A stretch of DNA of 64,000 nucleotides from Liolophura sinensis (taxonomy: Eukaryota > Mollusca > Polyplacophora > Chitonida > Chitonidae): NCBI RefSeq assembly GCF_032854445.1, contig NC_088305.1, positions 2,673,001 through 2,737,000 of the forward strand, in the 5' to 3' direction. The position numbers and the translations under genes were made by a program. A model generated the notes under the pieces. That model worked only from the letters and a program-made list of their open reading frames with translations, was not told the origin of the DNA and did not search any database. Positions 679-32,403 of the stretch are shown piece by piece. Each line of letters opens with the position of its first letter. The stretch's first letter is position 1.

Positions 679-3600
679 CTGGAGAGAGAGAGAGAGCACT
701 CAGACTTTATTCCCATTCCCTGTCACTCATTATTCTTATTGTAACTTTAAATGCCTATTGCAATGATGTTGCATACTCACATGTTGCCCCATACAGAAAG
801 AAGTCGATACTCACATGTTGCCCAACAAAAGTAAGTCCACACTCACTACTGTTATTATGTTGCAATGTTTAAACATGTGTTTGTACAGACAAATTTTATA
901 AACAAAGGAAAAGAACTGAAAGCTAAAACAGAAAGACTTCAGATCTTCTAAAATATGAAACATCCAGTCATTATCTACAATGTAAGTGGAACTGTAATAT
1001 TATGGAAAATCACTTGCTGATTGTATCAACACAGTTGCTGATTGTATCAGCACAGTTGCTGATTGTATCAACACAGTTGCTGATTGTATCAGCACAGTTG
1101 CTGATTGTATCAACACAGTTGCTGATTGTATCAACACAGTTGCTGATTGTATCAGCACAGTTGCTGATTGTATCAACACAGTTGCTGATTGTATCAGCAC
1201 AGTTGCTGATTGTATCAGCACAGTTGCTGATTGTATCAGCACAGGCGTAACACGATTCATTGTAATTTCCCTGAGTGACGCATAGATCAAGAAAGATGGC
1301 GGTGGTGGGAGGCGGGGAAAGAGGTGAGGGGTTCATATTCACGTCAACACTGTCATACACTTGTTGCCCCACAGAAGAAAGTCCATACTCAAATGTTGCC
1401 CCACAGAAGAAAGTCCATACTCAAATGTTGCCCCACAGAAGAAAGTCCATACTCAAATGCTGCCCCACAGAAGAAAGTCCATACTCAAATGCTGACCCAC
1501 AGAAGAAAGTCCATACTCAAATGCTGCCCCACAGAAGAAAGCCCATACTCAAATGCTGCCCCACAGAAGAAAGTCCATACTCAAATGCTGCCCCACAGAA
1601 GAAAGTCCATACTCAAATGCTGCCCCACAGAAGAAAGTCCATACTCATGTCGCCCAACAAAAGAAAGTCCACACTCACATGATGCCCCACAGAAGAGTGT
1701 GTGAGTGCTTGGGGTTTAATGTCGTACAATTTTTCAGTCATATGATGACGAAGGGATCCTTAGAGTGGATATAATGTGCCTCCTTGTTGCTAGACGGATT
1801 TTCATCAATCTTTTATCTAGTGCTGCTTCAAGGCAAGTAAGCCACGCCATTATACTGAAAAGGGTCAACCATCCAATGCCCTATCCCCTTGAAGCTGAAC
1901 GCCAAGCGAGGAAGTTACAACTTCCTCATTTAAAGTGTGACTCTGCCCAGGATTGACCATGGATCTACTGCTCCCGAAGCGGACGCTGGACCAACTGTGC
2001 TATCTGGGCCTGTCCATACTCACATGTTGCCTCATGGAATAAAGTCCATACTCACATGTTGCCCCAAAGAAGAAAGTCCATACTCACATGTTGCCCCATA
2101 GAAGAAAGTCCATACTCACATGTTGCCCCATAGAAGAAAGTCCATACTCACATGTTGCCCCATAGAAGAAAGTCCATACTCACATGTTGCCCCATAGAAG
2201 AAAGTCCATACTCAAATGTTGCCCAACAAAAGTAAGTCCATACTCACAAGTTATCACTGACAATAAACTTCAAACTCCTAGGTTGCTACTGACTAAAAAA
2301 GTAATACTCACATGTTGCCACTCAATGCCTTCTCTCATATACTCTTCTTGCTCCTGCTTCAGCACCAACTCAATGAACAGTTGCTGTAACTTTTCATTGC
2401 AGTAGTTGATACAAAACTGTTCAAAGCTGAAACACAAAATGACATGGACATTTTGAGTTTTAAGGCATGCTGTCCTCATTTGGCACCTGGGTGTCACAAG
2501 ATAATACTAAGTTTCCTGAATTGTGTTAAGGCATAAAATTCAAATAAGGCCAGAACACTTGTTGTCCCTACATCATTTGTAATTCTTGATTGTCATCAAA
2601 ATTAGTACCCTGTGTAGTTAAATCATGACTGTACAGTCTGATGTAATTACTTTTACTGTGACACTGCCTTTTCCATTGCGCGTCATTGTCATGTCATGCC
2701 ACTATATCAGCGCTGCCTGCAATCAACAAAGCTACATGTAGCATCAGTTTTCTTAGCTCAGCTTTACATATATGGGAGACTAGCTTTCTATTTGCGAAAT
2801 ACTGTAGGGACAAAACTGTTATTGGTGTGTTGAGAAGGGTATATGGGAATTTAAACCCCGGGTTTGAAATTTTAAATCCCCATATACCATTCTCAAAACA
2901 TGGATAACTTATATTAGACAGAGATTAACTACAGATTACCAAATGGTGAGTCAGTTTGAGAGTCTTGCTGATCTCTAAAAGGTGTTTGGACACACAACTC
3001 TCAACCCCTGGTGGACAAACCTGTTATTGTCAAAGATCTCGAAGCCGTAGATGTCCAGCACCCCTATCACAGTATTTTTGCCCACATATTTGATGCCGCT
3101 GGCTTTTATGTCAATGGCTTCGTTTATCCTTCCCACAATCCATGTGAACATCCGGTCATATACAGCCTGCAAAATAAACAATGTCACAATTACCCTAAAT
3201 CACCTAAAATTTCGCCCACAAAAGTGCATTTTTAGAGGCTAACAAATGTCACAAAATATTATTTTTGTTGCTGAAACAAATTTTCCAGTAAAATATCAGC
3301 CCATGTTTCACGCAAACCTCAAAACACCTTCCTAAAATCAACAGAACTCCCAGAAGCAGGAAAAATGGGCAAGTTAGTCATGGACAAAATTTATGGTCAT
3401 TTAGGGCATTAGAAGAAGCAGTGTGGTAAAATTTTTCACATCATTTTAAAGATGAACATTTTGTCTGATTTTGACAGTTCTTTTTATGAAAAAATGGTGT
3501 TTTAATACCTGTTATAACATTCATTTGTCTTTAATAATGTACTTTTTATGCCAAGAGTTCAGATCATCTTTTCCTTATCCACTCAATTCAATCAATCAAA

Positions 3601-6600
3601 CTCTACTCCACCCACATTGCAAACAGGAACTTGTATAAAGTTCCAAAAGAAACTAGGCAAAAGGTTTAGAATTATACAAAGGAAATCCTGTGAAGCAGAT
3701 CTACATCTATAACAACATGATTCAAAAGGATTTACATTTAATTAAGAATTTCATTGTACAGGTAAGTGAAAAACTATGCATGTCAGTTCTATATGCCTAC
3801 CTTTGCAAATGCATCTCTTGCATAGTAGGCTTCTGGAATGGTTAAAGTTTTGTTTACAACATCCCCGCCTGCTGCGACAACGCGAGAGCACAGTGCCACC
3901 TGCAGGTCATCTGCGTTCACAGACAACAACTCAGTGATATAGTCTAACTCCGCCTTGCTTTTTGTCTCCGCAGCCTCCCGATCCTCCGGACACTCGAAAT
4001 GAATGTTACCCTGCAAGACAATGTTCAGAATAACATGTGTACACGTCTGCTTGGGTTTAACGTTGTACTTAACAATTTGTCAGTCATTAGGTGTTTCGGT
4101 TGCATGACCTACTTCTGGCAGCCATATTGGAGTACTGCCCATGTTGACAAAACTCCAATATGGCTGACTAGCTATTGTTCTGCAAGGGTGATGATGTCAT
4201 GTGCAACCCCTCCATACTGTGTATTCTTGTAGCAGGGCGAGTTTATGCTATCAAAGTGCTGCCCCCACGGAAGTATCATGCCTAAAACATCAGAAATGAC
4301 CCCCCACCCAGTCACATTTACTGATACCGTGCCAAAAAGTCCTGTTTCCTTGCTCTAACCTCTCGGTGCTGAGCACCAAGCCAGGCAGCTGTAAGAACCA
4401 ATTTTGAAGCATGTTTACAATGAACATTTTGCAAAAAAGAAGCACATGTATGCGAGCTATCTATTAAGGCAAGCTTTTGCTGGCTTCCGCTCTGGTCATA
4501 CTTGGAAAAGTATGCTAGCATAAGGCCAGCAACCTGCAAATGGTCATGGGTTTCCCCCGGGCATTCGTCCCACCATCTGATAATTCTGGCCTCCATTGTA
4601 CAAGTGAAATACATTTGAGTACATTTGAGTGTTGATGTGCAAAGCCACCTTGGAATAGCAGACAGGAATACGGTAACGCACATACAGTGTAGATCTTCAT
4701 ACAGACAAGTTTTGTCAAATGTTTGTCCCACGAGAAACAGATGGGAGACACAGATGGAAATATGAAAAGACGGACAGAAACTACTTTATATTGCAGAGGC
4801 ATAAAACAATATATATATTACTCCAGCCAGCCAATAAACACTGGATTTGTTTCGTTTCTTGGGATTTATCATTACATTCAACACTATATCGAAACAATTT
4901 CTCCTTGGAGTTGACTGAATCCAATTATAAAAACGATCTATAGTGCCGCCTCATTCTAACACCATGCTGATGACACCAGCAGTGATGCTTCAACCGGCAC
5001 TTAAAATATCGCTTATCCAGTGTCCTATGCAAAGATGTGCACACAATACAAAGTTACCAACTTCAGCAAAAAGCACTATTTGAATTTGAACCCTAAGTTG
5101 ACCTGCGACTGAGAGGGCTTGAGCGTAAAGTATGGCTAATAAACAAGTTGAAAACCAAAATTAACAGCACCATGAAAAAGATCTGAAAAACAGTATTGCT
5201 GTACCTCACTGACAAATTACCATGATCAGTGGCTATCATTATGAGGCGAGCTGCTTTCTAGTGTGTACGAAACACTCAAATCAGGTAAGCCTGTCTGGAT
5301 AACACTCACCAGGTGCATCACCGCGGCAACAATCTTCCACAGTGTCTCTGCGTGTTTGAAGGCAAATCCCACAGCTTTCAGAGCATCCATCACATTGCGG
5401 TAGTCGTTCTTGTCATTGATGGAGTCCACCTTAAAACACAACAGCAAATAATCATGGTTCAATCTGAGGAACTTAGAAACTTGGACGGACGGATTGCCTG
5501 AGCAACCTTGGCAGTCATCCTGAAGCAGATTTGTGATCACAGTGTTGAGGTTATAGAGCTGGTCAGAACAAAGCCATCTTTAAGGCATCATGGCAGCTTG
5601 CACAGCTGCCATTACCCTGCCATAGTGGTTACATGCAGATGACGACGAGGAGTCATTAGGTGTGTGTAAATATACTGTGTCTTCTTGTGGCAGGGCAAGT
5701 TCATGCCGCCAAAGTGCTGCTGCCACTGAAGTATCATGTCAAAGACACCAGACAGGAGACCTCACCCTGTCACATATACTGACACCAGGTCTTGTTTCTT
5801 CACTCTAACCTCCCAAGGTGAATGCCAAGCGAGGCAGTAACAAGCACCATGTTTAAAGTCTTTGGTATGACCCGACGGGTGAGTGAGTGCCTAAGGTTCA
5901 ACATCATACTTAACAATTTTTCAGTGCAACCAGTCATTGCACTATCCCCTTAATGCTGAACGCCAAGTGAGGAAGCTACAACTTCCTCTTTTACGGTCTT
6001 AGGTGTGACCCGATCCAGGATTGACCCTGAATCTACCGCCCTTGAAGCGGACGTTCTACTAACCGAGCTATCAGGGCTGGTCGGGTTGCAAACGAGAAGA
6101 CAGCACAAAGACACAGGTCAGACTACGGTATACACACTGAGGACTTGCGCTGGTTTGTGGACCATGTTTGTATGACTTTCCACAAATGCCCACACCCTGT
6201 AGGCAGGGTATTCATTAGAAGACAGGGTCCAGCCTCCCACAACAACTATCGTAACTATCGGAGCAGGTAACCACCTTCAATGACCACCATTCCTACTTTA
6301 CTTCTTTTAATTCTCTGTCAAGAAGCTTACAACTTTGCCCGGGTAGCCTTCAACCCAAAGGGATAATGACCCTCTGAAGAAGCTGTGTCTACTCACCTTG
6401 TGATCCCCACCCTGCTTGATGTAGTGATAGTTTTTGGGGCCTCTCTGTACACCCAGCCACACTAGTGTGGATACTCACCTTGTGATCCCCACCCTGCTTG
6501 ATGTAGTGATAGTTTTTGGGGCCTCTCTGTACACCCAGCCACACTAGTGTGGATACTCACCTTATGATCCCCACCCTGCTTGATGTAGTGATAGTTTTTG

Positions 6601-9600
6601 GGGCCTCTCTGTACACTCAGCCACACTAGTGTGGATACTCACCTTATGATCCCCACCCTGCTTGATGTAGTGATAGTTTTTGGGGCCTTTCTGTACACCC
6701 AGCCACACTAGTGTGGATACTCACCTTGTGATCCCCACCCTGCTTGATATAGTGATAGTTTTTGGGGCCTCTCTGTACACTCAGCCACACTAATGTGGAT
6801 ACTCACCTTGTGATCCCCACCCTGCTTGATATAGTGATAGTTTTTGGGGCCTCTCTGTACACTCAGCCACACTAGTGTGGATACTCACCTTATGATCCCC
6901 ACCCTGCTTGATGTAGTGATAGTTTTTGGGGCCTCTCTGTACACCCAGCCACGCTAGTGTGGATACTCACCTTGTGATCCCCACCCTGCTTGATGTAGTG
7001 ATAGTTTTTGGGGCCTCTCTGTACACCCAGCCACACTAGTGTGGATACTCACCTTATGATCCCCACCCTGCTTGATATAGTGATAGTTTTTGGGGCCTCT
7101 CTGTACACCCAGCCACACAAGTGTGGATACTGACCTTATGATCCCCACCCTGCTTGATATAGTGATAGTTTTTGGGGCCTCTCTGTACACCCAGCCACAC
7201 TAGTGTGGATACTCACCTTGTGATCCCCACCCTGCTTGATATAGTGATAGTTTTTGGGGCCTCTCTGTACACTCAGCCACACTAATGTGAATACTCACCT
7301 TGTGATCCCCACCCTGCTTGATATAGTGATAGTTTTTGGGGCCTCTCTGTACACCCAGCCACACTAGTGTGGATACTCACCTTGTGATCCCCACCCTGCT
7401 TGATATAGTGATAGTTTTTGGGGCCTCTCTGTAGATGCAGCTCTGTCAATTTCTGCTCTGTAGCACCACTCAGCAACTGGGTAAACAGCAGAGAATTAAG
7501 GAATGATACATGTAAACACATCTGTCAAGAAATCTCAATGATTTTAAATAACAATAATATTTTCTTAGGGAGATCAATTAGTTTAATACAAAACCAATAA
7601 TCACACATTTACACAAACAGCTATTTTAATGTATATATGCAACACAAATGATCCTGATAAAAAGGTATCACTGCCTATATAAAATATACCAGAATTTCTC
7701 AACATTTTCGCATATGAAAGAGCAACTTTCAGTGCAATTTATGCACATTTACAATTTGATTTTGGAGACAAAACTAGATTCGTTGGATTGGCCATTTTCA
7801 GGGTTTCACAAAGAGTATAATTTTATTAGTCTATACAAAATAATGCCTTCAGAATATGCTTGAATGAACATCTAACAAACATGCGAAAAGAATTACAGTA
7901 TTGTCATGGAGACTTTCGCACTTAATGAACCGAGACATGTTTTGACACGAATAAATAATAAAGCCGAGATGCTGTCTGTTTTTACATGTACATGGACAAA
8001 AGCCTGTCAAATTTATACCAGTGACACAAGCAGAGGGAAAAAATATTTGTTTTTTTTTTAATACCACAAAAATAAACAAAAATAAAAATTCACCTGGTAA
8101 AAAGAATGAAAGTTCCTCTCTCCAGATTGCTGATAAACAACGCGGGACTGAAAACGAGAAGAAAAAAATTAGAAACAAAACAAAATGCATCAAACACTTC
8201 AATTGTCATCATCCTTTTTATTCTGTCAGTAATTTTTTTTTGGAACTGAAGACATTTATTTTAATCAGGAGTCGTACAATGAACCAGGTATGGCACAGAC
8301 TTCAGCGGGTAGGTATTACTTGGTTAATACCACACTTCACCCAATGGTAATATTTCCCTAATAGTTTTCTGCTTTTAAATAGATTTGCATTATTTTTTAA
8401 CCTGTAAAAATACACTTCATCATAAATCACTGCATTTCACCTAAAGTTACACATTTTTCAACTGACACATATTGCTTGATTCTGATAACTTCATCCACCT
8501 TAATACATGGCCACTTAGAAGGTTTTTGTTTTAAATTTTGAGGAATTCCTTATCAGACAAACTTCAATACTTGCATCAAGAGTATCATTTTAAGACCTCT
8601 ATGTGCTTGTGAAAGAACATTTTGACACAAACTAGAGGTGAAATACAGTATATTCAGTCCTGTATTTTATGCCCGTTGACAGGATTTTGAGTAGCACAGC
8701 TAAAAGGTCATATTTGAAGTTTTAAAAAAAAGTTTTCAGTTTGAAAACATTTAATACCAAACTGAGCATAAAACATGCTTGACGTCATTATAAAAAATAG
8801 ATAATCTTGTTATGGGTTGATTAGACTTCTTAAGATCAGCAAATTGCTTATTTAATAATGTTTGTGAGATCAACATGGAATATTCGTCGAACACAAATAT
8901 TTTGAAGTCTAACACTACCTAACCATAATATAGTAAGCTGTTTGAGCAAAACACTTTAGCTTAAAGGGATACAGAATCGTTTCTGATTGGCTGTGCCCAG
9001 TTGTTCGAAAGTGTATTCACTAATACTGGTATTAAGTCACATTTCATATTTAAATTCAAATTTAAATTTAACGCCAAAATCAGCAGCCAGTGCAGTTCTC
9101 CAAACTCAAAGCATAACAGCAGCAGTTTTAGTTCATATTTAATACACTGGTACACTTTTTTCTTATAAGCTATGTACTAAATTGAAGACTTCGCTTGAAG
9201 GTAAATATAGTATTAAGTCTTAAACCAGCTTTGAATAATGGGGCAATGATGTGAGAGATAAGCAAGTCCTGGCTATGCCCAGCCTAATTGGAAATCTCAA
9301 CTAATTAGCGTCAGTTTCCTGAAGAAAGGAAAAAAAAAAGAAGTTTTGTGTAAACAGGCCCAGTTTTTAATAATCTGGACTTACCTTTTCTAACAGGTAA
9401 TTGTTGATGTGACCTCCAATGGGATCCCCTTTGAAGTCAAAGTTGATGTCCATGTATTTGCCAAAACGACTGGAGTTATCATTGCGATTGGTCTTGGCAT
9501 TCCCAAATGCTTCCAAAATGGCATTGGACTTAATGAGGACATCTTTCACCCTGTAATTGGGGAGAAAAGACACAAAATGATATGAGTACATTGAAATTTG

Positions 9601-12600: not shown

Positions 12601-15600
12601 ATTACCATGTAATTAGGTTACTATGTAATTAGGTAACCATGTAATTAGGTTACCATGTAATTAGGTTACTATGTACATATAGTGCACATGTTTTATGAGG
12701 TGTCTGTTTACATGTACATGCACAAATACAGCAGAATCCTAGTTCTGTCTGAGTTATCCCCCCTAGCCAATCACCTAAGGTTATTTTCTGATGCAGATCT
12801 AGATGTAATGCCATCCAGGTACTTAACAACTAGTTGACCCTCTGCCCCAATCTGTCTCAATCCCTGGTAATCCCCACCCTGGGGGAAATGCTGATGAGAG
12901 ACCTTATCCCCTATAATATAAATACTGGGGCAGTGCTGACAAGCCTTAACCCAGGGCTGACAAGGATGACTGTAAAGGCCTCGACATTCACTAATCACAT
13001 GAAGATCTGTTACCATAAATATTCTGGTATACCACACACACAAAAGGGACAAGAGCAGTAATAAATGAATGAACAAACTGCGCCGAATAAAGCAAATACA
13101 GCAGATAAATTGGACAGAATTTACAACAAATATCAAACGCACTGTAGCATAAATATCCAAGTACACAAATATCAAACCTTACACACACAAATCTTCCTGA
13201 GTACTGCATAAAACACCAATGAAATAAATAAATAAATAAATGTACACTGTACATAGCTGAACACAAAGAAAAAAGAAACAATGACAAACAAATACTGAGA
13301 TGATTTGCAAACTGTGAATATATCCCACTGTGAATGCATGACTGTGAAATAAAATCAAGGATTTACCATAGCATCAAATTAAGATGTGACATTAAGCCAT
13401 GATCATTCACTCGTGTCTGTAAGATTCACACACTATGCCCGTTTTTTCTGCCGGAAATATTCACTCCTTCAGCATTTTACATATATATAATACATGTACG
13501 TCTTTTATCTACATACATGCACTTTTTTGTTCGTTCAGGATTTTTGGCTATACAGTTGATTCAATGGGATTTATTTTTGTTCAACTATGGCTTCTCAGGA
13601 AAACAGACAGATTTGTGAATCAGTAGCATGTTATTCCTCAAACCTTCTGCATATGAAAGTGCAGCTTTCAGTGTAATTTATGCACATTTGTAATTTGATT
13701 CTGGAGACAAAACTACATTGGTGTGACTGCCCAAATTCAGGGCTTCACAAAAAGTACAGTTCAGAATAGCTTTCAGAATATGCTTACATATAAACACATT
13801 GCAAACATGAGAACGTGTGGAACAATTATGGTAAGTCAGGAATACGGATATCTATACTTGTCTCAGGCACTTCTCTCTCACACCGTAAACTGTGTGTAGA
13901 AAACTAGCGTGACCCTCTGATAATTAACCTGGTTGTCATCCTCCATTCTACGTTAAGAGAAACATGCTGCTAAGTTCTCATTGCGTAATGATACGGACGT
14001 AGTTTAAACAATTACACTTAATACATTGATTCAACCTGCTAGAAACACAACAACAAAAATCAGCTGCAAGAGAGTTTACCATAAAACAAATATACCGCCC
14101 ACGTAGATATTCAATTGAAAAATTTATTTAAATTAATTAATTTATTATTGATTTGATTGTTTAATGCCACACAATTTTAACACAAACATACGATGTTAGT
14201 CAGTAGCTATCAAGTAAGCTCAAGAACTTTGTGTACTGAACATGTACTTGTTTCCATTCAAATCTGTCCTGGGTTTTGGCAACCAACCCAGAGCCTGGGG
14301 AAAACTTGCTGGACTGATTGGCCTGATAATTATTAGACCAATGAATCACTGACTCCACTGGAGGGGGAGAGTGTGGGGGTGTGCAGGAAGAGGGGGGGGG
14401 GGGGTACCGCTCATTAGTAAGGCTACCCAACCCCTATCTCAAACCTCAACAGTCCCATTATACATGTATACACACATCGCTTTACCCATCCTTAAAATAT
14501 GTCCGTTGTGCGAAACATTATTGATGCATCTAAAATGTTTAACAGTCGATGAAAACACATCTCTTTTCTGCAGCCAGCTGATCGATGGCACCTATTTATT
14601 ACATGTACATGAACAAATATCTGCATAAAATTTTTACGCACCAAAAATAATTTTAAAAACCTCTGGAAATTATGGTCTGAAAAAAAAAATTCACCTGAAA
14701 AAATACACTGTAATTGTTTTGTGGAATTTCCCAGTCAGAGGAAGATGTTTAAAAAAAAAACATAATTTAAAGTATTTCTGGACACAGTTCTCTCGCGTCT
14801 TTCAATTGACGCACACATTATTGTTGATTATGTAGACTTTAAACACTATGGCTGACCTTGACAACAGCAAAGAGAAATTTTTTTTTTTGGATTTTTATAA
14901 TCATGAGTTTCATGAAAGCTAATGACATTTTGGGTAACACTTTTCAAAGGGTATGCTATTATAAGTACAAATTTGTTTTGTCCTAATGAAGCCTCTGTGG
15001 TATTGTCGTCAAACACTAAAGCAAATATACCATACAACATGTATGCATGGTGCAATTCACCTCAGGGCTAAATCGCCCCTTAACTCATCATTGATCATCA
15101 AACACTACACATAAATGTACCAAATCATTCTGGGCAGCAGTCCAGCTGTAGTATTAGCAGTCCCCTGGCGTGACTGATAATTACTTTTACACAGAAGGCG
15201 TTATCAGGATTCACCACATATATGTACCAAACATGTACTCTGTACTGTACACTGTTGTAATGAGCAGGGCTTGACTCAGGGCAATTTTGAAACGGTGAAA
15301 AGGGGTCTGGTGGTGAGAAGTTTGGGATACCAAATGATACCATTTTCATCATTTTGGAATATCTGCATATGTAAAAATGGTAAAACAGCTTTGAAGCCAT
15401 TCAAAAGTTTGGCCAAACCATAAGTACATGTAGCCTATTCAGCTACAAGTACGCCTATTCAGCTACAATTACGAGGAGCCTATTCAGCTACAAGTATGCC
15501 TATTCAGCTACAATTACTTGCAGCCTATTCACCTACAAGTAGCCTATTCAGCTACAACTACAAGTATGCCTATTCAGCTACAATTACAGGTAGCCTATTT

Positions 15601-18600
15601 ACAAATGGTTAAGATTCAGTTACAAGTACGCCTATTCAGCTCCAATTACAAGTAACCTATTCCGCTAAAAGTAGGCTTATTCAGCTACAAGTATGCCTAT
15701 TCAGCTACAATTACTTGCAGCCTATTCTGCTACAATTAAAAGTAGCCTATTCAGCTACAACTACAAGTAGCCTATTTACAAATGGTTACAGATTCAGTTA
15801 CAAGTATGCCTATTCAGCTACGATTACAAGTATCCTATTCAGCTACAAGTAGGCCTATTCAGCTACAATTACTTGCAGCCTATTCTGCTACAATTAAAAG
15901 TAGCCTATTCAGCTACAACTACAAGTAGCCCATTTACAAATGGTTACAGATTCAGTTACAAGTATGCCTATTCAGCTACAATTACAAGTAGCTGATTCAG
16001 ATACAATTACTTGAAGCCTATTCTGCTACAATTACAAGTAGCCTATTCAGCTACAACTACAAGTAGCCTATTTACAAATGGTTACAGATTCAGTTACAAG
16101 TATGCCTATTCAGCTACAATTACAAGTAGCTGATTCAGCTACAATTACTTGAAGCCTGTTCTGCTACAATTACAAGTAGCCTATTCAGCTACAACTACAA
16201 GTAGCCTATTTACAAATGGTTACAGATTCAGTTACAAGCATGCCTATTCAGCTACAACTACAAGTAGCTGATTCAGCTACAATTACTTGAGGCCTATTCT
16301 GCTACAATTACAAGCAGCCTATTCAGCTACAATTACAAGTAGCTGATTCAGCTACAAGTACATTGTAGATCAAGTCCTGAAGAAGGATGAATACTATAAA
16401 AGCTTGAGCCTTCTACAAGTCTAACAATATATATTTTCTAAAGCCTTAATTGCTTTTTACTACCAAGCATATACATATACTAATGAAGATGCAGATCCAA
16501 TAAGAAAAGGGCCCAGGGTCCACAAGAGATACATGTACAAAAATGTACACCATACTGGTGGATGTGAGCGTCAAACATTTTGAAAGTACTATGGGGTGTT
16601 GAGAAATAATCTGCATGGTTTTATGAAGTTTGCATCTTTAATAACACAAACAATTTTTTGGCATCATTTTCATAACTCTACGCATCAATTCCTCTGAAAA
16701 AAGGACTTTGAGGTAGAAAAGGTAGATGATTTATAGTATTAATGATGACCCTGTGTACACGGTATCTCCATGTACATCCAAATCGGTGAGAAGCTGCTAC
16801 ATGTAGCTTTGCCATGGGTCAGCGAAATCAACAAAACTGCTGCATAAACTTCACAAGTAAATATATCACAGTAAATCTACAGGTCCTTTTATCTGGTGGC
16901 AATATTTCCCTGTCAGATTATTCTGTTTACAGTTCCAAGAAGAGAGTTCCCATCCAATATAATTAGAGGTCATTTGAGTGACAAGATAATTATGAATCAA
17001 TACTTTTTAGTTCAGAGATCCAATCCACCATTACAGCACGATATACAGCAGGTTTTATCCACAATCCACCATTACAGCATGATATACAGCAGGTTTTATC
17101 AACAATCCACCATTACAGCATGAAATACAGCAGGTTTTATCCACAATCCACCATTACAGCACGATATACAGCAGGTTTTATCAACAATCCACCATTACAG
17201 CATGAAATACAGCAGGTTTTATCCACAATCCACCATTACAGCATGATATACAGCAGGTTTTATCAACAATCCACCACTACAGCATGATATACAGCAGGTT
17301 TTATCAACAATCCACCATTACAGCATGATATACAGCAGGTTTTATCCACAATCCACCATTACAGCATGATATACAGCAGGTTTTATCCACAATCCACAAT
17401 TACAGCATGATATACAGCAGGTTTTATCAACAATCCACCATTACAGCATGAAATACAGCAGGTTTTATCCACAATCCACCATTACAGCATGAAATACAGC
17501 AGGTTTTATCCACAATCCACCATTACAGCACAATATACAGCAGGTTTTATCCACAATCCACCATTACAGCATGAAATACAGCAGGTTTTATCAACAATCC
17601 ACCATTACAGCATGATATACAGCAGGTTTTATCCACAATCCACCATTACAGCACAATATACAGCAGGTTTTATCCACAATCCACAATTACAGCATGATAT
17701 ACAGCAGGTTTTATCAACAATCCACCATTACAGCATGAAATACAGCAGGTTTTATCCACAATCCACCATTACAGCATGATATACAGCAGGTTTTATCCAC
17801 AATCCACCATTACAGCATGATATACAGCAGGTTTTATCCACAATCCACCATTACAGCATGAAATACAGCAGGTTTTATCCACAATCCACCATTACAGCAC
17901 GATATACAGCAGGTTTTATCAACAATCCACCATTACAGCATGAAATACAGCAGGTTTTATCCACAATCCACCATTACAGCACGATATACAGCAGGTTTTA
18001 TCAACAATCCACCATTACAGCATGAAATACAGCAGGTTTTATCCACAATCCACCATTACAGCACGAAATACAGCAGGTTTTATCCACAATCCACCATTAC
18101 AGCACGAAATACAGCAGGTTTTATCAACAATCCACCATTACAGCATGAAATACAGCAGGTTTTATTCACAATCCACCATTACAGCATGATATACAGCAGG
18201 TTTTATCAACAATCCACCATTACAGCATGATATACAGCAGGTTTTATCCACAATCCACCACTACAGCATGATATACAGCAGGTTTTATCCACAATCCACC
18301 ATTACAGCATGATATACAGCAGGTTTTATCAACAATCCACCATTACAGCATGAAATACAGCAGGTTTTATCCACAATCCACCATTACAGCACGATATACA
18401 GCAGGTTTTATCAACAATCCACCATTACAGCATGAAATACAGCAGGTTTTATCAACAATCCACCATTACAGCATGATATACAGCAGGTTTTATCCACAAT
18501 CCACCATTACAGCATGAAATACAGCAGGTTTTATCCACAATCCACCATTACAGCACGATATACAGCAGGTTTTATCCACAATCCACCATTACAGCACGAT

Positions 18601-21600
18601 ACACAGCAGGTTTTATCCACAATCCACCACTACAGCATGATATACAGCAGGTTTTATCCACAATCCACAATTACAGCATGATATACAGCAGGTTTTATGC
18701 ACAATCCACCATTACAGCACGATATACAGCAGGTTTTATCAACAATCCACCATTACAGCATGAAATACAGCAGGTTTTATCCACAATCCACCATTACAGC
18801 ACGATATACAACAGGTTTTATCAACAATCCACCATTACAGCATGAAATACAGCAGGTTTTATCCACAATCCACCATTACAGCATGATATACAGCAGGTTT
18901 TATCAACAATCCACCATTACAGCACGATATACAGCAGGTTTTATCCACAATCCAAGATTACAGCATGAAATACAGCAGGTTTTATCAACAATCCACCATT
19001 ACAGCACGATATACAGCAGGTTTTATCCACAATCCACCATTACAGCATGAAATACAGCAGGTTTTATCAACAATCCACCATTACAGCATGAAATACAGCA
19101 GGTTTTATCCACAATCCACCATTACAACATGATATACAGCAGGTTTTATCAACAATCCACCATCACAGCATGATATACAGCAGGTTTTATCAACAATCCA
19201 CCATTACAGCACGATATACAGCAGGTTTTATCCACAATCCACCATTACAGCATGAAATACAGCAGGTTTTATCAACAATCCACCATTACAGCAGGTTTTA
19301 TCCACAATCCACCATTACAGCATGATATACAGAAGGTTTTATCCACAATCCACCATTACAGCATGAAATACAGCAGGTTTTATCCACAATCCACCATTAC
19401 AGCACGATATACAGCAGGTTTTATCAACAATCCACCATTACAGCATGAAATACAGCAGGTTTTATCCACAATCCACCATTACAGCACGATATACAGCAGG
19501 TTTTATCAACAATCCACCATTACAGCATGATATACAGCAGGTTTTATCAACAATCCACCATTACAGCACGATATACAGCAGGTTTTATCCACAATCCACC
19601 ATTACAGCATGATATACAGCAGGTTTTATCAACAATCCACCATTACAGCATGATATACAGCAGGTTTTATCCACAATCCACCATTACAGCATGATATACA
19701 GCAGGTTTTATCCACAATCCACCATTACAGCACGATATACAGCAGGTTTTATCAGAGCTAAATCGATCACCTCATGCGTGAATGTCCAGATTCATGGGCC
19801 TCGTATCCAAACAGTCCATATCAGGATCTATGTAACACTTTGCCTAAAGTGTTGAAAAAGGCAAGGTACATTGTACACAAATACGAATCTAGAACTAGGG
19901 TGAAAAACAAGGGTTTCGGGGTAAATCTGAAACTGGCGAAACAAAGCACAATCACTAAATGTATCACTTTTACAGGACAAAATTGTGAATGATGGAGAGC
20001 ACTTTTAGCAAACATGTAAGACCAGGCTAACAACACTACAAGGACTGTCTACGGCTTTCTGTTGGCACCATGGAATCAAGAAAAAAAAATCTTAAAAAAA
20101 ATTATTTATTTATTTTATTTTATTTATCAGGCCCACACAAGCGGGCTCGCATCAACCACTTATTTTCAGGAACATCCCACAAACAGTGACAGCAAGAGGC
20201 ACTGTCCATGCAAAGATAATAACATACACGTAGGCCTACTGTGTTTAACATTTTCATCTATTTATTTCATTCGTGTTTTACATCGTACTCAAGGATATTG
20301 CAGATATGATGGCAGCCACCATTATGGTGAGAAGAAATTGGGTAGAGAACCAAGAGAAATTCACAACCATCCGCTGGTTGCGGGCAGACCTACCCACGTT
20401 TCACCCAAAATTCCCCAAGTACATGTACACTTACATGTATATTGTGTGTGTCAAGGGCAAGTCTGCGTGGCCTGGCATAGCACAATGACTCAAGAGCCCC
20501 TCGTCTTAACGCACTTGCATGTCTCGCGTCGTACATGTACGTGGGAAGGTCTACCTGGGCATGCTCATGGGTTTTCCTCGGGTAAAATTTCCTTTCACCA
20601 TAGTGCTGTCTGCTGTCACATGAAATATCCTTGAGTGCAGCATAAAACACCAATAATTAACTACACTAAATAATTAAGTAAATCAAAGGTATTCTGTGCA
20701 GCCACTACTCCTCTGAGCATGAAGGTTACATATACATTCTGAGATCTCTTTTTTTCTGAAGCGTGAGTGCGTCATTTATTTATTAGTTTTTTTTACGTCG
20801 TACTCAAAAATACATGTATTTCACCAATATGATGGCAGCCAGAGCCTGGGGGGAAACCACAGCCCTTCACGCAGGTTGGTGTTTGACATACACGCACATG
20901 CATATACAGTGTGTACGTCAAAACATTATTGCTCTGATGCAATTAAGATGAGTATGATTACCTGGCTATTGTTGATCGTCCACATGTAATTACAGGTAAT
21001 GAATCATGCCCACCTGAGAACAACCAGGCTGTTGTAATGCACAGGTAACAAAATCAATTCAATGTGGTGACGTGTCCATGGAACAAAAACAACATCCAGG
21101 CGCGCCACCATATCTGATTAATTACAGACGTGTACAATAAAGGGCAAGTATCAATTTTTTTTCACCTGCAAAATGACTCTTTCATGGTTGTCATTCATAT
21201 CTACTTTTGGGAGCTAAATGAATTACACTTCATTTACAGGTACATGTACACTGCATGAATTAAACAAAAGTGTCAATGACACTAGATAGACTACATGGAT
21301 CCAAACTTATAAACTTTTGTTCCGATGATGTTCTACAACAAAATTAAAGAAAACATGTGAGTTCACCAGCCTAATTAGTAACTGCCTTTAAATACACTTT
21401 TTGCAATTTTTGGTACTTAAATGTACCAATTGGTTACTTGGAAAATAAAGTGGTAGACTGTTGTTGCACTAAGTGTCGACGTACAGTGTAATAGGTAAGG
21501 CATACATGTACACGTACAGCCTGCAAATGCTGCGACTGACCCAAAATTGCACACTTTTGTCTTTAAAAAGGTGCTCTGAGTTTGGTTGGAAGGTTAATTT

Positions 21601-27600: not shown

Positions 27601-30600
27601 CGTAAAACATGGTAATATACCACCTGATGATGACCGGCGGTGCTGCATGTCATGGTCCACAAGTCATCAGACTGACCACTGCAATGTGTTACTGGAGCGT
27701 GACCAACATCAGCGACCTTACACCTCCTCAGTCACCCATCACTGATTTTATCACCGTTTATCGCATGTATATCAGAATGTCATTAACACAAATATGCACC
27801 TTTACCTGCATGTCCTTAAGATTTGAGGTTGTCTGTTCAACACCTTTAGCCACCTTATTGACCTAGCTTCACATATGTACACACCAGACAGTACACAAAA
27901 TCTATTATAACTCTATTACGTACTGCCGTGTGCACACGTCGCAAGTGTGTAGTGTATAAAGCAGTGTGGGCAACAACAGAGTTGTTGTCAAAAACAGATC
28001 TTTTCTACCATTTCCTTAACTCTTATAATACAAGATTCTGCATGTATTACACATCTCAGAAAAAAAGCTGTTGACTTGGTACTAAGAACATCACCATTAT
28101 CATTCCCCACAACAGCTCTAAAGAATGTCACCATTATCATCTCCACATTCAGCACTAAGAACATCACCATTATCATCCCCACATTCAGCACTAAGAACAT
28201 CACCATTATCATTCAGCACTAAGAACATCACCATTATCATCCCCACATTCAGCACTAAGAACATCACCATTATCATCCCCACATTCAGCACTAAGAACGT
28301 CACCATTATCATTCCCCACATTCAGCACTAAGAACATCACCATTATCATTCAGCACTAAGAATGTCACCATTATCATCTCCACATTCAGCACTAAGAACA
28401 TCACCATTATCATCCCCACATTCAGCACTAAGAACATCACCATTATCATTCAGCACTAAGAACATCACCATTATCATCCCCACGTTCAGCACTAAGAACA
28501 TCACCATTATCATTTCCCACATTCAGCACTAAGAACATCACCATTATCATCCCCACATTCAGCACTAAGAACATCACCATTATCATTCCCCACATTCAGC
28601 AATAAGAATGTCACCGTTATCATTCCCCACATTCAGCACTAAGAACATCACCATTATCATTTCCCACATTCAGCACTAAGAACATCACCATTATCATCCC
28701 CACATTCAGCACTAAGAACGTCACCATTATCATTCCCCACATTCACCACTAAGAATGTCACCGTTATCATTCCCCACAGGTACAGTGCACATAAGCAATG
28801 CAAGGCTTCATAAACTGCAAGTGCCATAAATGGATACATAATCGATTCTGATTGGCTGATGTGAGAGATAGGCAAGTCCAGGCTATGCCTAACCTAAGCT
28901 AAGGTTTAAGTATGGCACATTTATTTAAGACTGACCAAGACTGCAGGGTTTAATCCAGGAAACCCTGATTCCCTTTAAAGGCCAAACTCAGAACAGGAAA
29001 GAACTCAAACTGTAGTTGGTACATTCAGTATACAAATCATAAACTTTCCATAGAAAAGCATTTAAACTGCAGCTGCTTGTGTTTTTTGACTAAAGTCTTA
29101 AGACATTTGATAAATATTGGCCACGCTTTCAGTGAAGTCAATTTGAAATTCTGATCAAGCAGTTTCCCAACTGTTCACAGCAGCTACAGGTACAGGTACA
29201 GGTACAGGTACAGGTACATGTATATGGGAGCCCTGCCTACATGTAGTTAGTGTTTGTGTAGGTGTAGTACCCAGAACTGACAGTAACTGTCATTGGTAAT
29301 ACATACACTGTGAACATATCCCCACCCACGGTTCACTTCTTCTGGTCACATTGTTAGAATTTTTCCCCTCAGCCTGAACCCAGCAATACCCTCTTACTGC
29401 AAGCTCCACCTGAGAATCTCTACCTGTTTCAAGTTGATATCTCAGGTATAGGAAGAAAACTTTTTACTTCCTTCTTCATTACATGTTTTTGTATGATCCT
29501 TGCTTAATGCCATATTTAAGATTTTTTCACTTACAGGTAAGGATGGTTGTCCGTTTCACAGGTGAAGGAAAATGAAGTGCAAGAGAAAAGTTAAAACCAC
29601 CAACCCTCTCACAAGTAAATGATAAATATTCCCAAGTGTGATATATGGATTTACACAGAGTACACAGAGTGTACATCTGCACTCTATGGTGGTGGGAGGT
29701 TCCTGGCTCTTTCATGTATGCATGAATTTGTACTTCAAGAGGAAATCAAGTTAATGGTGCTAAACAATCAAAACTTACATGTAAATAATGCCAAATGCTA
29801 ACATTTTACTTTCTTTCATATGATTTTGCTTATGTTCATTTTTGGAAGTCCTCAAAAAAAAATCTCAAATGAGTGGAGGGAACAGGAGTGCCTGGCATAA
29901 ACCACCAACCTTTGGCATGTTAATGACAAACTTTTTGACAAATAACAAGTAGTGTACATGTATACACATCACACTGGTGGAAGATAAATCTTCTTTAACG
30001 AACGTTAGACTTCATGCACAAGCAGTAAGAGCTTGAGAGCTTACACATCCCCTGTCTAAGGCTGGGGATACATGTATATGATGGGGACTGAGCTGTGGTA
30101 CAGAAAGCCCCCCCCCCCCCCCATCCATCCATTAGTGCTGGTGACCTCAAAGGCAGAGATCACACCATGGAAACACTTCTCATGCATATTCATCATGTGG
30201 ATAAGGTCGAGCATTAATCCACCCAATTACTGCTAACTTTTAACACCACTCTTCACATCAACAATTAGCCAATTGACAAGAGCAGCTGAACTAATTGAAT
30301 AGCTATAAGAGGCTGCCAAGTGCTGCTGTGACTTTATGGAGGTTGTTAGGTGTAGATAGGGCAGCTTAGGCTGGAGAGCAGTGCTGTGAAATCCTCCACA
30401 TAACAATAGCCGCACATCATGACAGGTGATGTTACAGGTCCAACAACACGGACAACATTTTACTGGCAAGACATTTATTGCCAGTAAAATTACAACCCGC
30501 ACCGATGCAGGCACAAAAAAGAAACCCTGTTCTTACAGGATTTTTAGTTCCTTTTCTTTATTATCATAATTGGATTCCCCTTCTCCTTTGAGGATCACAA

Positions 30601-32403
30601 GAAGTGAGTGAGCGAGTGCTTGGGTGTGACTCGACCCAGGATTGACCCCGGAGGATCACAAGGAGTGAGTGAGCGAGTGCTTGGGTGTGACTCGTCCCGG
30701 GATTGACCCCGGAGGATCACAAGGAGTGAGTGAGCGAGTGCTTGGGTGTGACTCGTCCCGGGATTGACCCCGGAGGATAAGGAGTGAGTGAGCGAGTGCT
30801 TGGGTGTGACTCAACCCGGGATTGACCCCGGAGGATCACAAGGAGTGAGTGAGCGAGTGTTTGGGTGTGACTCGACCCAGGATTGATCCCGGAGGATCAC
30901 AAGGAGTGAGTGAGCGAGTGTTTGGGTGTGACTCGACCCGGGATTGACCCCGGAGGATCACAAGGAGTGAGTGAGCGAGTGCTTTGGTGTGACTCGTCCC
31001 GGGATTGACCCCGTAGGATCACAAGGAAAAATCATGCCCAATAAGAAAACTTTCCTTTCTATCAACTTAAACCTGAATATAGAAATTTGGACAATCAGCG
31101 ACAAATATACCCTTGTGTATATCAAAAATAAGCATATATGCTCTAGATACTGAAAAGTCTCAGCTGTTCACAAATTGGTTTAGGAAGTAGTGTGTTCACA
31201 CATCACCCACCTTAAGTACATATATAATACTGCATGTTAAATAGGGCATGTAAATATACTACACATATACACCCATACAGACGTGATGTCGTGCAACTGG
31301 TTACATGCACATGTGTCACATTTACCCACTACAGGAACTTTACAGTGACTTCTTAAAGGGCTACAGAATCACTTCTGATTGGCTGGACAGATGGGAGAGT
31401 CCAGGCTATGCCTTGCCTAAGCTGAATTTTAGGTAGGGAACCTTTATTCAAGCAAAGATTTAACCTAGGAAACCCTGTCTTCACTGTCAGCCAATCAGGA
31501 TCGATCCTGTATCCCTTTAAAATTTACTCATAACACATCCACTTGACTGTATATGACAAGACAGTGGTTTTTAACGTCATATTGAAGAATTTTAAGGCCA
31601 GGGAGAATGAAAGTGTCCTGAGCAAATCACCTACATAAGCCAGGTTAATGTATCTAGCAGTGGAACCTCTTTACCTACAGCTGCCTCTTTCGTCAGGTGC
31701 TAATTGGTAAAGACATGTACTGTTACAGGTAGAATGGTTTTAGTAAAATAAGAAATGGTAAACATGGTGCTTTGGACGTGGCGAGGACAGATAATTAGAA
31801 GAACTGAATACCAGGTGGCAAAACGTTTGGTTATTCACTTGTAGAGCCAAGAAGAAACTTGGAGTGAACCACCATCTACCTTTGGCAAGTACCGGGCATT
31901 CTTTAGCGGCCACATTAATACCACGAGATATACTGAAATATACATGTTTATCAGCCTGATGGAGGGCAATTTATGGTATGTTATCGCAAACATGGTGCTG
32001 AGTGACATATGGATAAAACTGGAATGGTTGGTTGGTTGGTTGGTTGGTGTGTCGGGGGGGGGGGGGGGGATTATTATTTTCTCACTAATTTAGACCAGAC
32101 ACCTAAAGCCCTTCACAAACGAGGGAGAATCTTCAAATCCAGCAGTTGTTTAAAGTCAGGGGGTGTGTTGCATATCTAGGACAGAGCTTCACTTCTGTTT
32201 TCCTCCATCCAATTCAAGTACATAATCTACATAAGTGAAATATCGGTACAGCGTTATATTATAAACGCCGAGAAAATGCCGGTAATCAAGGAAATAAATT
32301 ACATGCATGTTTAGATGTGTGAAGCATTTTTTTTTCTGTACATTTCATTTTATTTCAATGCATTTGCCTCAAATTTTAAACAGCTCACCTTCAATAAATA
32401 CCG

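Follow-up and report, generated by a model that had tools for sequence, protein, structure and literature searches.

The analysed window is a 64,000-nucleotide stretch of the Liolophura sinensis genome (C11:2673001-2737000 within a 609-Mb assembly of 632 contigs), and the element described here is an 82-bp tandem array that repeats the end of exon 6 of a myosin gene, together with its 5' splice site, inside intron 6. Plain coordinates refer to the window, and all others carry the label of their contig or locus. The host gene lies on the minus strand, and 23 of its exons (C11:2684261-2658569) were read by eye; its 5'-most exon or exons were not found. As the joined exons 6-9 matched Pfam Myosin_head and the final three exons matched Pfam Myosin_TH1, the gene was assigned to the class I myosins. 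Myo1d, the name used in an earlier reading of this DNA (the original prediction), is plausible, the orthologue level being only putative, and the gene is referred to here as Myo1d-like. Reading frame and alignments with Myo1 proteins placed exon 5 (18 residues) at 8094..8147 and exon 7 (VDSINDKN..., acceptor ttttaag) at 5310..5429, both on the minus strand, and exon 6 (7381..7476, minus strand) comprises 96 bp in phase 0 and encodes 32 residues. Exon 18 (L002 about 2518-2398) showed an apparent 1-nt frame slip in an otherwise conserved exon, which may be an assembly error or real. Over 129 kb of adjacent sequence (L004-L011 and the window beyond base 15000), the ranked open frames appeared transposon-like or weak by eye.

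Tandem Repeats Finder (TRF) reported the array at 6390-7433 with a period of 82 bp, 12.7 copies, 96% matches, 0% indels, and a score of 1934, and copy alignment resolved it into 13 copies (6390..7433, minus strand). The 48-bp end of exon 6 was present 13 times on the minus strand at a spacing of exactly 82 bp, once as the true exon end (copy 1, 7428-7381) and 12 times as decoys in intron 6 (copies 2-13, 6397..7346, minus strand), in which a 48-bp exon copy is followed by a donor and a 34-bp spacer. Each of copies 2-12 is a complete decoy unit, and copy 13 (6444-6397) stops after GTGAGTA without the full spacer. Chance cannot reasonably account for a period-82 array that is so long and free of indels. 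The exact period and the 12 decoys agree with the original prediction, which had described about 12 intronic units of 82 bp copying the final 48 bp of exon 6.

Intron 6 opens with 34 bp (7347..7380, minus strand) that contain the authentic donor GTGAGTATCC, a 14-bp palindrome CCACACTAGTGTGG, and the end TGTACAG. Identity between the exon and the array begins 5 bp before the 48 bp, as TACAG (from the codons CTA CAG) is common to both, and the last 53 bp of exon 6 (TACAG and the 48 bp) therefore belong to copy 1. The shared segment is thus 60 bp long (TACAG, the 48 bp, and GTGAGTA), and the remaining spacer is 22 bp long and holds the perfect 14-bp palindrome. Given that the array ends in the middle of a unit, the ancestral duplication may already have comprised two copies of 60 bp separated by a 22-bp filler, or a later deletion may have trimmed the array. 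Two other origins or roles of the spacer were rejected. A 26-bp piece of it, allowing at most 3 mismatches, had 12 matches across the assembly, all 12 of them inside the 82-bp array, which argues against a transposon-derived spacer. The palindrome was rejected as an RNA hairpin, since the first two units gave z = 0.67 and 152 of 200 shuffles folded equally well or better, and the spacer substitutions did not look compensatory by eye.

The units were nearly uniform. Among copies 1-12, which are the full units, the mean pairwise difference was 2.7 of 82 positions (3.3%), the TGTACAG end was unchanged, as had been predicted, and copies 1, 3, and 9 were identical over all 82 bp. It therefore appears that the true exon end has been homogenised together with the decoys. 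An intact donor in every unit, preceded by CAAG, had also been proposed; GTGAGT was intact in 11 of 12 decoys with copy 4 reading GTCAGT, and CATAAG stood in place of CACAAG in 5 of 12 decoys. The 16 codons were open in all 12 decoys, and an amino-acid change was found in one of them (copy 10, K where the others code R). Variable sites numbered 3 of 48 in the exon part and 6 of 34 in the intron part (P = 0.10), and two of the three in the exon 6 copies were synonymous third positions; coding selection on these decoys was not established by this comparison.

The consequences of using each of the 13 donors were examined by conceptual translation. Only donor 1 kept the frame open from exon 6 to exon 7, and donors 2-13 led to a first stop 64 residues beyond the beginning of exon 6; for donor 2 this stop lies in exon 7 read in a shifted frame, and for donors 3-13 it lies inside the retained unit 2. 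Translation therefore bore out the predicted 16-codon coding end, its phase 0, and a stop within the second unit upon retention. In alignments with proteins of the PDB, the joint between donor 1 and exon 7 was gap-free against Myo1c (4byf, 9cfu), a one-residue gap lay near the joint in three Myo1b alignments, and none of the five Myo1c and Myo1b alignments shown had an insert of a repeat unit at the joint.

Splice sites were scored with a small matrix built from the sites of the Myo1d-like gene itself. Eleven of the 12 decoy donors scored 12.2 and the remaining one 9.8, and the 22 true donors ranged from 7.1 to 12.2. The decoy acceptors scored 4.4 to 6.4, which is under the median of the true sites and still inside the range of the 23 true acceptors (-1.0 to 14.4, each scored with a matrix from which it was omitted); the exon 6 acceptor scored 10.5 when kept in its matrix. 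Decoy acceptors had 7-8 pyrimidines in 17 nt, compared with 12-16 at three true sites, and an upstream YTNAY motif was found at 1 of 12 decoys, compared with 14 of 23 true acceptors. As the AG of the decoys comes from the exon codons CTA CAG, it is not derived from an intron acceptor. The resemblance of each unit to a mini-exon with a strong donor and a weak acceptor, which the original prediction had noted, was confirmed in its anatomy, with the qualification that the acceptor AG is exon sequence. For the same reason, and because the copies comprise just the 3' portion of exon 6, the units were rejected as tandem duplicated alternative exons.

The 34-nt pseudo-intron between decoys is shorter than the usual length of spliced animal introns. 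Skipping one acceptor (donor i to acceptor i+2) would give an intron of 116 nt, and the predicted need to splice to an AG three or more units away does not hold. Exon 6 would measure 96 nt with donor 1, 178 nt with donor 2, and 260 nt with donor 3; exon definition favours donor 1, which lies 96 nt from the real acceptor, and lengths of 178 and 260 nt do not exceed its reach. With strong decoy donors and decoy acceptors inside the true range, low-level use of decoys is possible.

The array is not peculiar to intron 6, and like arrays were found at other boundaries of the same gene and in other genes. Tandem repeats with units of at least 10 bp occupied 26,111 of the 164,000 bases around the gene (16%), and minisatellites are thus the background of the region. 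Exon 10 (2312..2426, minus strand, read by eye) ends in GAGTGGCAACAT followed by gtgagtatta, and its end and donor are copied in a second array of 32-bp units, GGGGCAACATGTGAGTATGGACTTTCTTCTAT (2012..2252, minus strand, from TRF and sequence), in which the boundary is repeated as GGCAACAT followed by gtgagtat. In a related 32-bp block at 1696-1365 the GT is missing from most units (consensus containing GCATTTGAGTATGG), and a relic of the exon 10-type array lies at 846-772. Between the blocks at 2252-2012 and 1696-1365, an insert resembling a short interspersed nuclear element (SINE) was seen by eye. The third array of the gene is located at exon 22, in the TH1 domain, where the boundary CCCCTGACAGAG followed by gtgagtga is repeated in units of 42/84 bp (L003 9070-8531, corresponding to C11:2661531-2662070, minus strand). 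The Myo1d-like gene thus holds three boundary arrays, at exons 6, 10, and 22.

Among the other myosin loci, C1 had a donor array of six 31-bp copies, and C3 had two donor arrays of nine 121-bp copies (L042 5818-6905) and eight 124-bp copies (L043 5948-6938). The 121-bp array alternates between gtaaag and gtaaaa forms, which suggests that it spread as a dimer. In the 124-bp array, of which 107 exonic bases per unit were examined, TAG stood in the frame of the exon in three of seven decoy copies (2, 6, and 7) and copy 8 had amino-acid changes (frames and changes read by eye). Because of these stops and changes, those C3 decoys are not under coding constraint. A 3' splice site was repeated at C2, where 51 near-identical copies of a 32-bp unit (TTTGTAG/GTTTGAG, the slash marking the boundary) were counted at L040 1682-1944 and 2145-3505, upstream of a myosin motor exon, with the site at L040 3497 (C2:5378497). 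No boundary-copying array was seen at the C4 and C10 myosin loci or in a compact kinesin gene (5 kb, six exons read by eye). Arrays starting within or right after a donor without a copy of the exon end were found at L002 4423-4213 and L048 around 1942-1568.

A screen for splice-like units over the window and L002-L031, including haemocyanin and myosin fragments, found 4 of 51 array rows to be donor- or acceptor-like, with a strong donor in the index array and the L003 array only; it overlooked the exon 10 array, whose unit carries CATGTGAGT. Several other features were noted in these regions. The window contains 67 repeats of a 41-bp unit (17021-19753) and a 61-bp array (30590-31027), the unit of which resembles by eye the tRNA-like part of a SINE in intron 6. 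At the C1 myosin, two 93-bp exons in tandem (L044 6691-6783 and 7294-7386) both match myosin residues 100-128, and a third, partial match to the same residue region lies at L044 6168-6299; the exons of equal length look like alternative duplicated exons. C8 carries eight consecutive Haemocyan_bet_s matches, and one unit matches PDB haemocyanin chains including KLH1; an eight-unit haemocyanin of this type marks a mollusc, and a lancelet origin of the genome was rejected on this ground.

The frequency of splice sites in arrays was counted over seven genes, namely the Myo1d-like gene, five myosin loci (C1, C2, C3, C4, and C10), and the kinesin gene, so that six of seven were myosins. Six further loci with multiple myosin-head matches had been chosen before their repeats were viewed, and the C12 locus was left out of the count. 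Splice sites at five loci were predicted rather than based on complementary DNA, with 33 of 36 exon matches kept and three dropped for poor site scores. The final rule required arrays to have three or more copies, with neighbouring copies within 300 bp, under a relaxed low-complexity filter. The count covered annotated boundaries with a copied exon end, and intron-starting arrays without such a copy (exon 17 of the Myo1d-like gene; C10 and C4 myosins) as well as the haemocyanin loci and the 3-kb myosin fragments L012-L031, whose boundaries are unannotated, were left uncounted.

Array membership was found for 6 of 61 donors and 1 of 62 acceptors, and four of the seven genes had at least one such site. 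Arrays covered 20.8% of non-coding positions, or 2.4% after each array was collapsed to one unit, and the latter was taken as the fair null for array starts. Donors exceeded this null (6 compared with 1.45 expected, P = 0.003, with similar results for three settings), also when the index case was removed (5 of 60, P = 0.014), and were not enriched relative to the raw background of 20.8%. Acceptors showed no excess (1 compared with 1.47 expected for the 62 sites of the seven genes), and the comparison of donors with acceptors gave P = 0.06. An earlier version of the rule had given 7 of 55 donors and 1 of 56 acceptors; two of its matches, to arrays elsewhere, were judged to be chance (C3 donor 8437 and C3 acceptor 15912), the C2 acceptor had been lost to the low-complexity filter, and the rule was changed and the kinesin gene added after this result was seen. 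Since the rule was tuned afterwards and the sample consists of myosins apart from one gene, the excess of donors counts as a lead and not as a result.

Arrays of this kind are known from the lancelet as mirages, which are tandem repeats across exon–intron boundaries in Adh3 and the globin genes BflGb6 and BflGb9; TnC is cited as another example, and PGBD5 contains similar but imperfect repeats (PMC3087553, PMC3902484). Mirages are reported at 5' or 3' boundaries, the two haplotypes of BflGb6 have 6 and 3 units, and regular splicing was reportedly undisturbed as judged by reverse transcription polymerase chain reaction (RT-PCR). The Liolophura arrays share with them a minisatellite-like unit that crosses the boundary with its splice signals, and both boundary types are represented. 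The index unit combines exon, splice site, and intron (53 bp of exon, GTGAGTA, and a 22-bp spacer), and the array is contiguous with an authentic exon end (copy 1) of a real gene with Pfam myosin domains. As far as the lancelet descriptions go, the present case differs in its molluscan host, in its greater length and regularity compared with BflGb6 (13 copies, no indels), in the homogenisation of the authentic copy 1 (the boundary units of the BflGb6 cluster are not homogenised), in the presence of three arrays in one gene, and in the long exonic parts (107 bp examined in the C3 myosin).

Other systems are related less closely. Tandem duplication of splice-signal sequence in potato RdRp and ATP2A1 likewise supplies the GT and AG from which a new intron could form (PMC4974935), whereas here the duplicate spans an existing boundary inside an intron and a new intron or exon is only hypothetical. 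The variable internal tandem repeats of human duplicated genes are also minisatellite-like, located at boundaries, and possibly a source of new introns (PMC2812944); they belong to recent primate paralogs, many with transcript support, whereas the index array lies in a class I myosin gene. The decoy exons of human OGT are similarly splice-site-bearing exon look-alikes within an intron (PMC12017769), for which U2AF-bound 3' splice sites and experiments are described. In molluscs, a 27-bp minisatellite that varies in copy number lies in an intron of an abalone gene, with no boundary involvement in the text available (PMC6905558), and the openly licensed literature, judged mostly by titles and the beginnings of abstracts, yielded no boundary-spanning array in this phylum. 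The index array is thus a known kind of array in what is, as far as the literature searched reaches, a new phylum.

We consider it very likely that the array is a neutral boundary minisatellite, or mirage, in which the exon-proximal donor is used and copies 2-13 are silent. This explanation was favoured because of the exact period, the exon-derived AG, the open frame from donor 1 only, the gap-free joint with Myo1c, the identity of copy 1 with copies 3 and 9, the minisatellite-rich surroundings, the recurrence of the class at further boundaries, the stops and changes in the C3 decoys, and the regular splicing reported for lancelet arrays. The array would have started as a tandem duplication across the boundary of exon 6 and intron 6; slippage, unequal exchange, or conversion would then have enlarged it within the intron, and the exon end and its 5' splice site would have been carried along passively. 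The donor of copy 1, to which protein homology and frame point, would be the one spliced, probably through exon definition with the real acceptor 96 nt upstream and through its earliest transcription, and the later copies would remain as pseudo-sites. Four observations weigh against this account. Eleven of the 12 decoy donors equal the best true donors of the gene. Classical experiments with duplicated 5' splice sites reportedly found that the copy closer to the 3' splice site can be the one chosen, so the use of donor 1 is not automatic. The lower variation of the exon part lies in the direction expected under constraint, at P = 0.10, and the over-representation of donors is not predicted by purely random seeding. 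The strength of the decoys also allows for leaky splicing, in which donor 2 or donor 3 would sometimes be used, the early-stop RNA degraded, and the output of the gene lowered or regulated. Both donors are as strong as donor 1, both lead to an early stop, and the resulting exon lengths are compatible with exon definition. The lancelet arrays are reported to be regularly spliced, although RT-PCR would miss degraded RNAs, and we regard leaky use as possible but doubtful.

The decoys could instead bind parts of the spliceosome and hold intron 6 back, as rarely spliced but recognised decoy exons promote retention of a human OGT intron (PMC12017769). At the 3' splice sites on which that type depends, the decoys gave the weak but in-range acceptor scores and the single YTNAY motif reported above, their poor pyrimidine tracts offer no clear counterpart to U2AF-bound sites, and the occurrence of arrays at several boundaries points to a mutational rather than a regulatory cause; such retention is very unlikely. 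The proposal that single units are spliced in as modular mini-exons, each adding 16 residues to the motor, is hardly credible. Each unit is indeed a 48-nt phase-0 open segment with an AG before and a GT after it, its acceptor falls within the true range, and the open codons with one amino-acid change among 12 decoys would suit a coding role. The proposed gain of residues nevertheless found no positive support, as the AG is exon-derived, the tract and branch motif are poor, the pseudo-intron has 34 nt, the alignments show no insert, and the comparable C3 array has stops in three of its seven decoy exon copies. A false expansion or collapse in the assembly is the least probable alternative. Tandem arrays are error-prone in assemblies, and the same gene contains the apparent frame slip in exon 18; however, the units differ by scattered mosaic substitutions without indels, and the same class of array recurs at several independent boundaries. 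The neutral minisatellite is the best explanation of the index array.

It is conceivable, though we think it unlikely, that minisatellites arise preferentially at 5' splice sites in this mollusc lineage through duplication linked to transcription or splicing (e.g., pausing, R-loops, or U1-bound DNA–RNA structures). If donors were preferred seeds, extrapolation would give thousands of boundary arrays genome-wide, and these would form a reservoir of preformed exons and introns as well as a natural series in which identical sites compete. If approximately one donor in 10 or 20 seeds an array, the genome would offer many natural experiments, in which roughly 6 to 51 competing sites share the same local sequence and differ mainly in position. 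With ordinary RNA-seq, such arrays would make testable both the choice of an exon-proximal site over its identical neighbours and the birth of new exons and introns.

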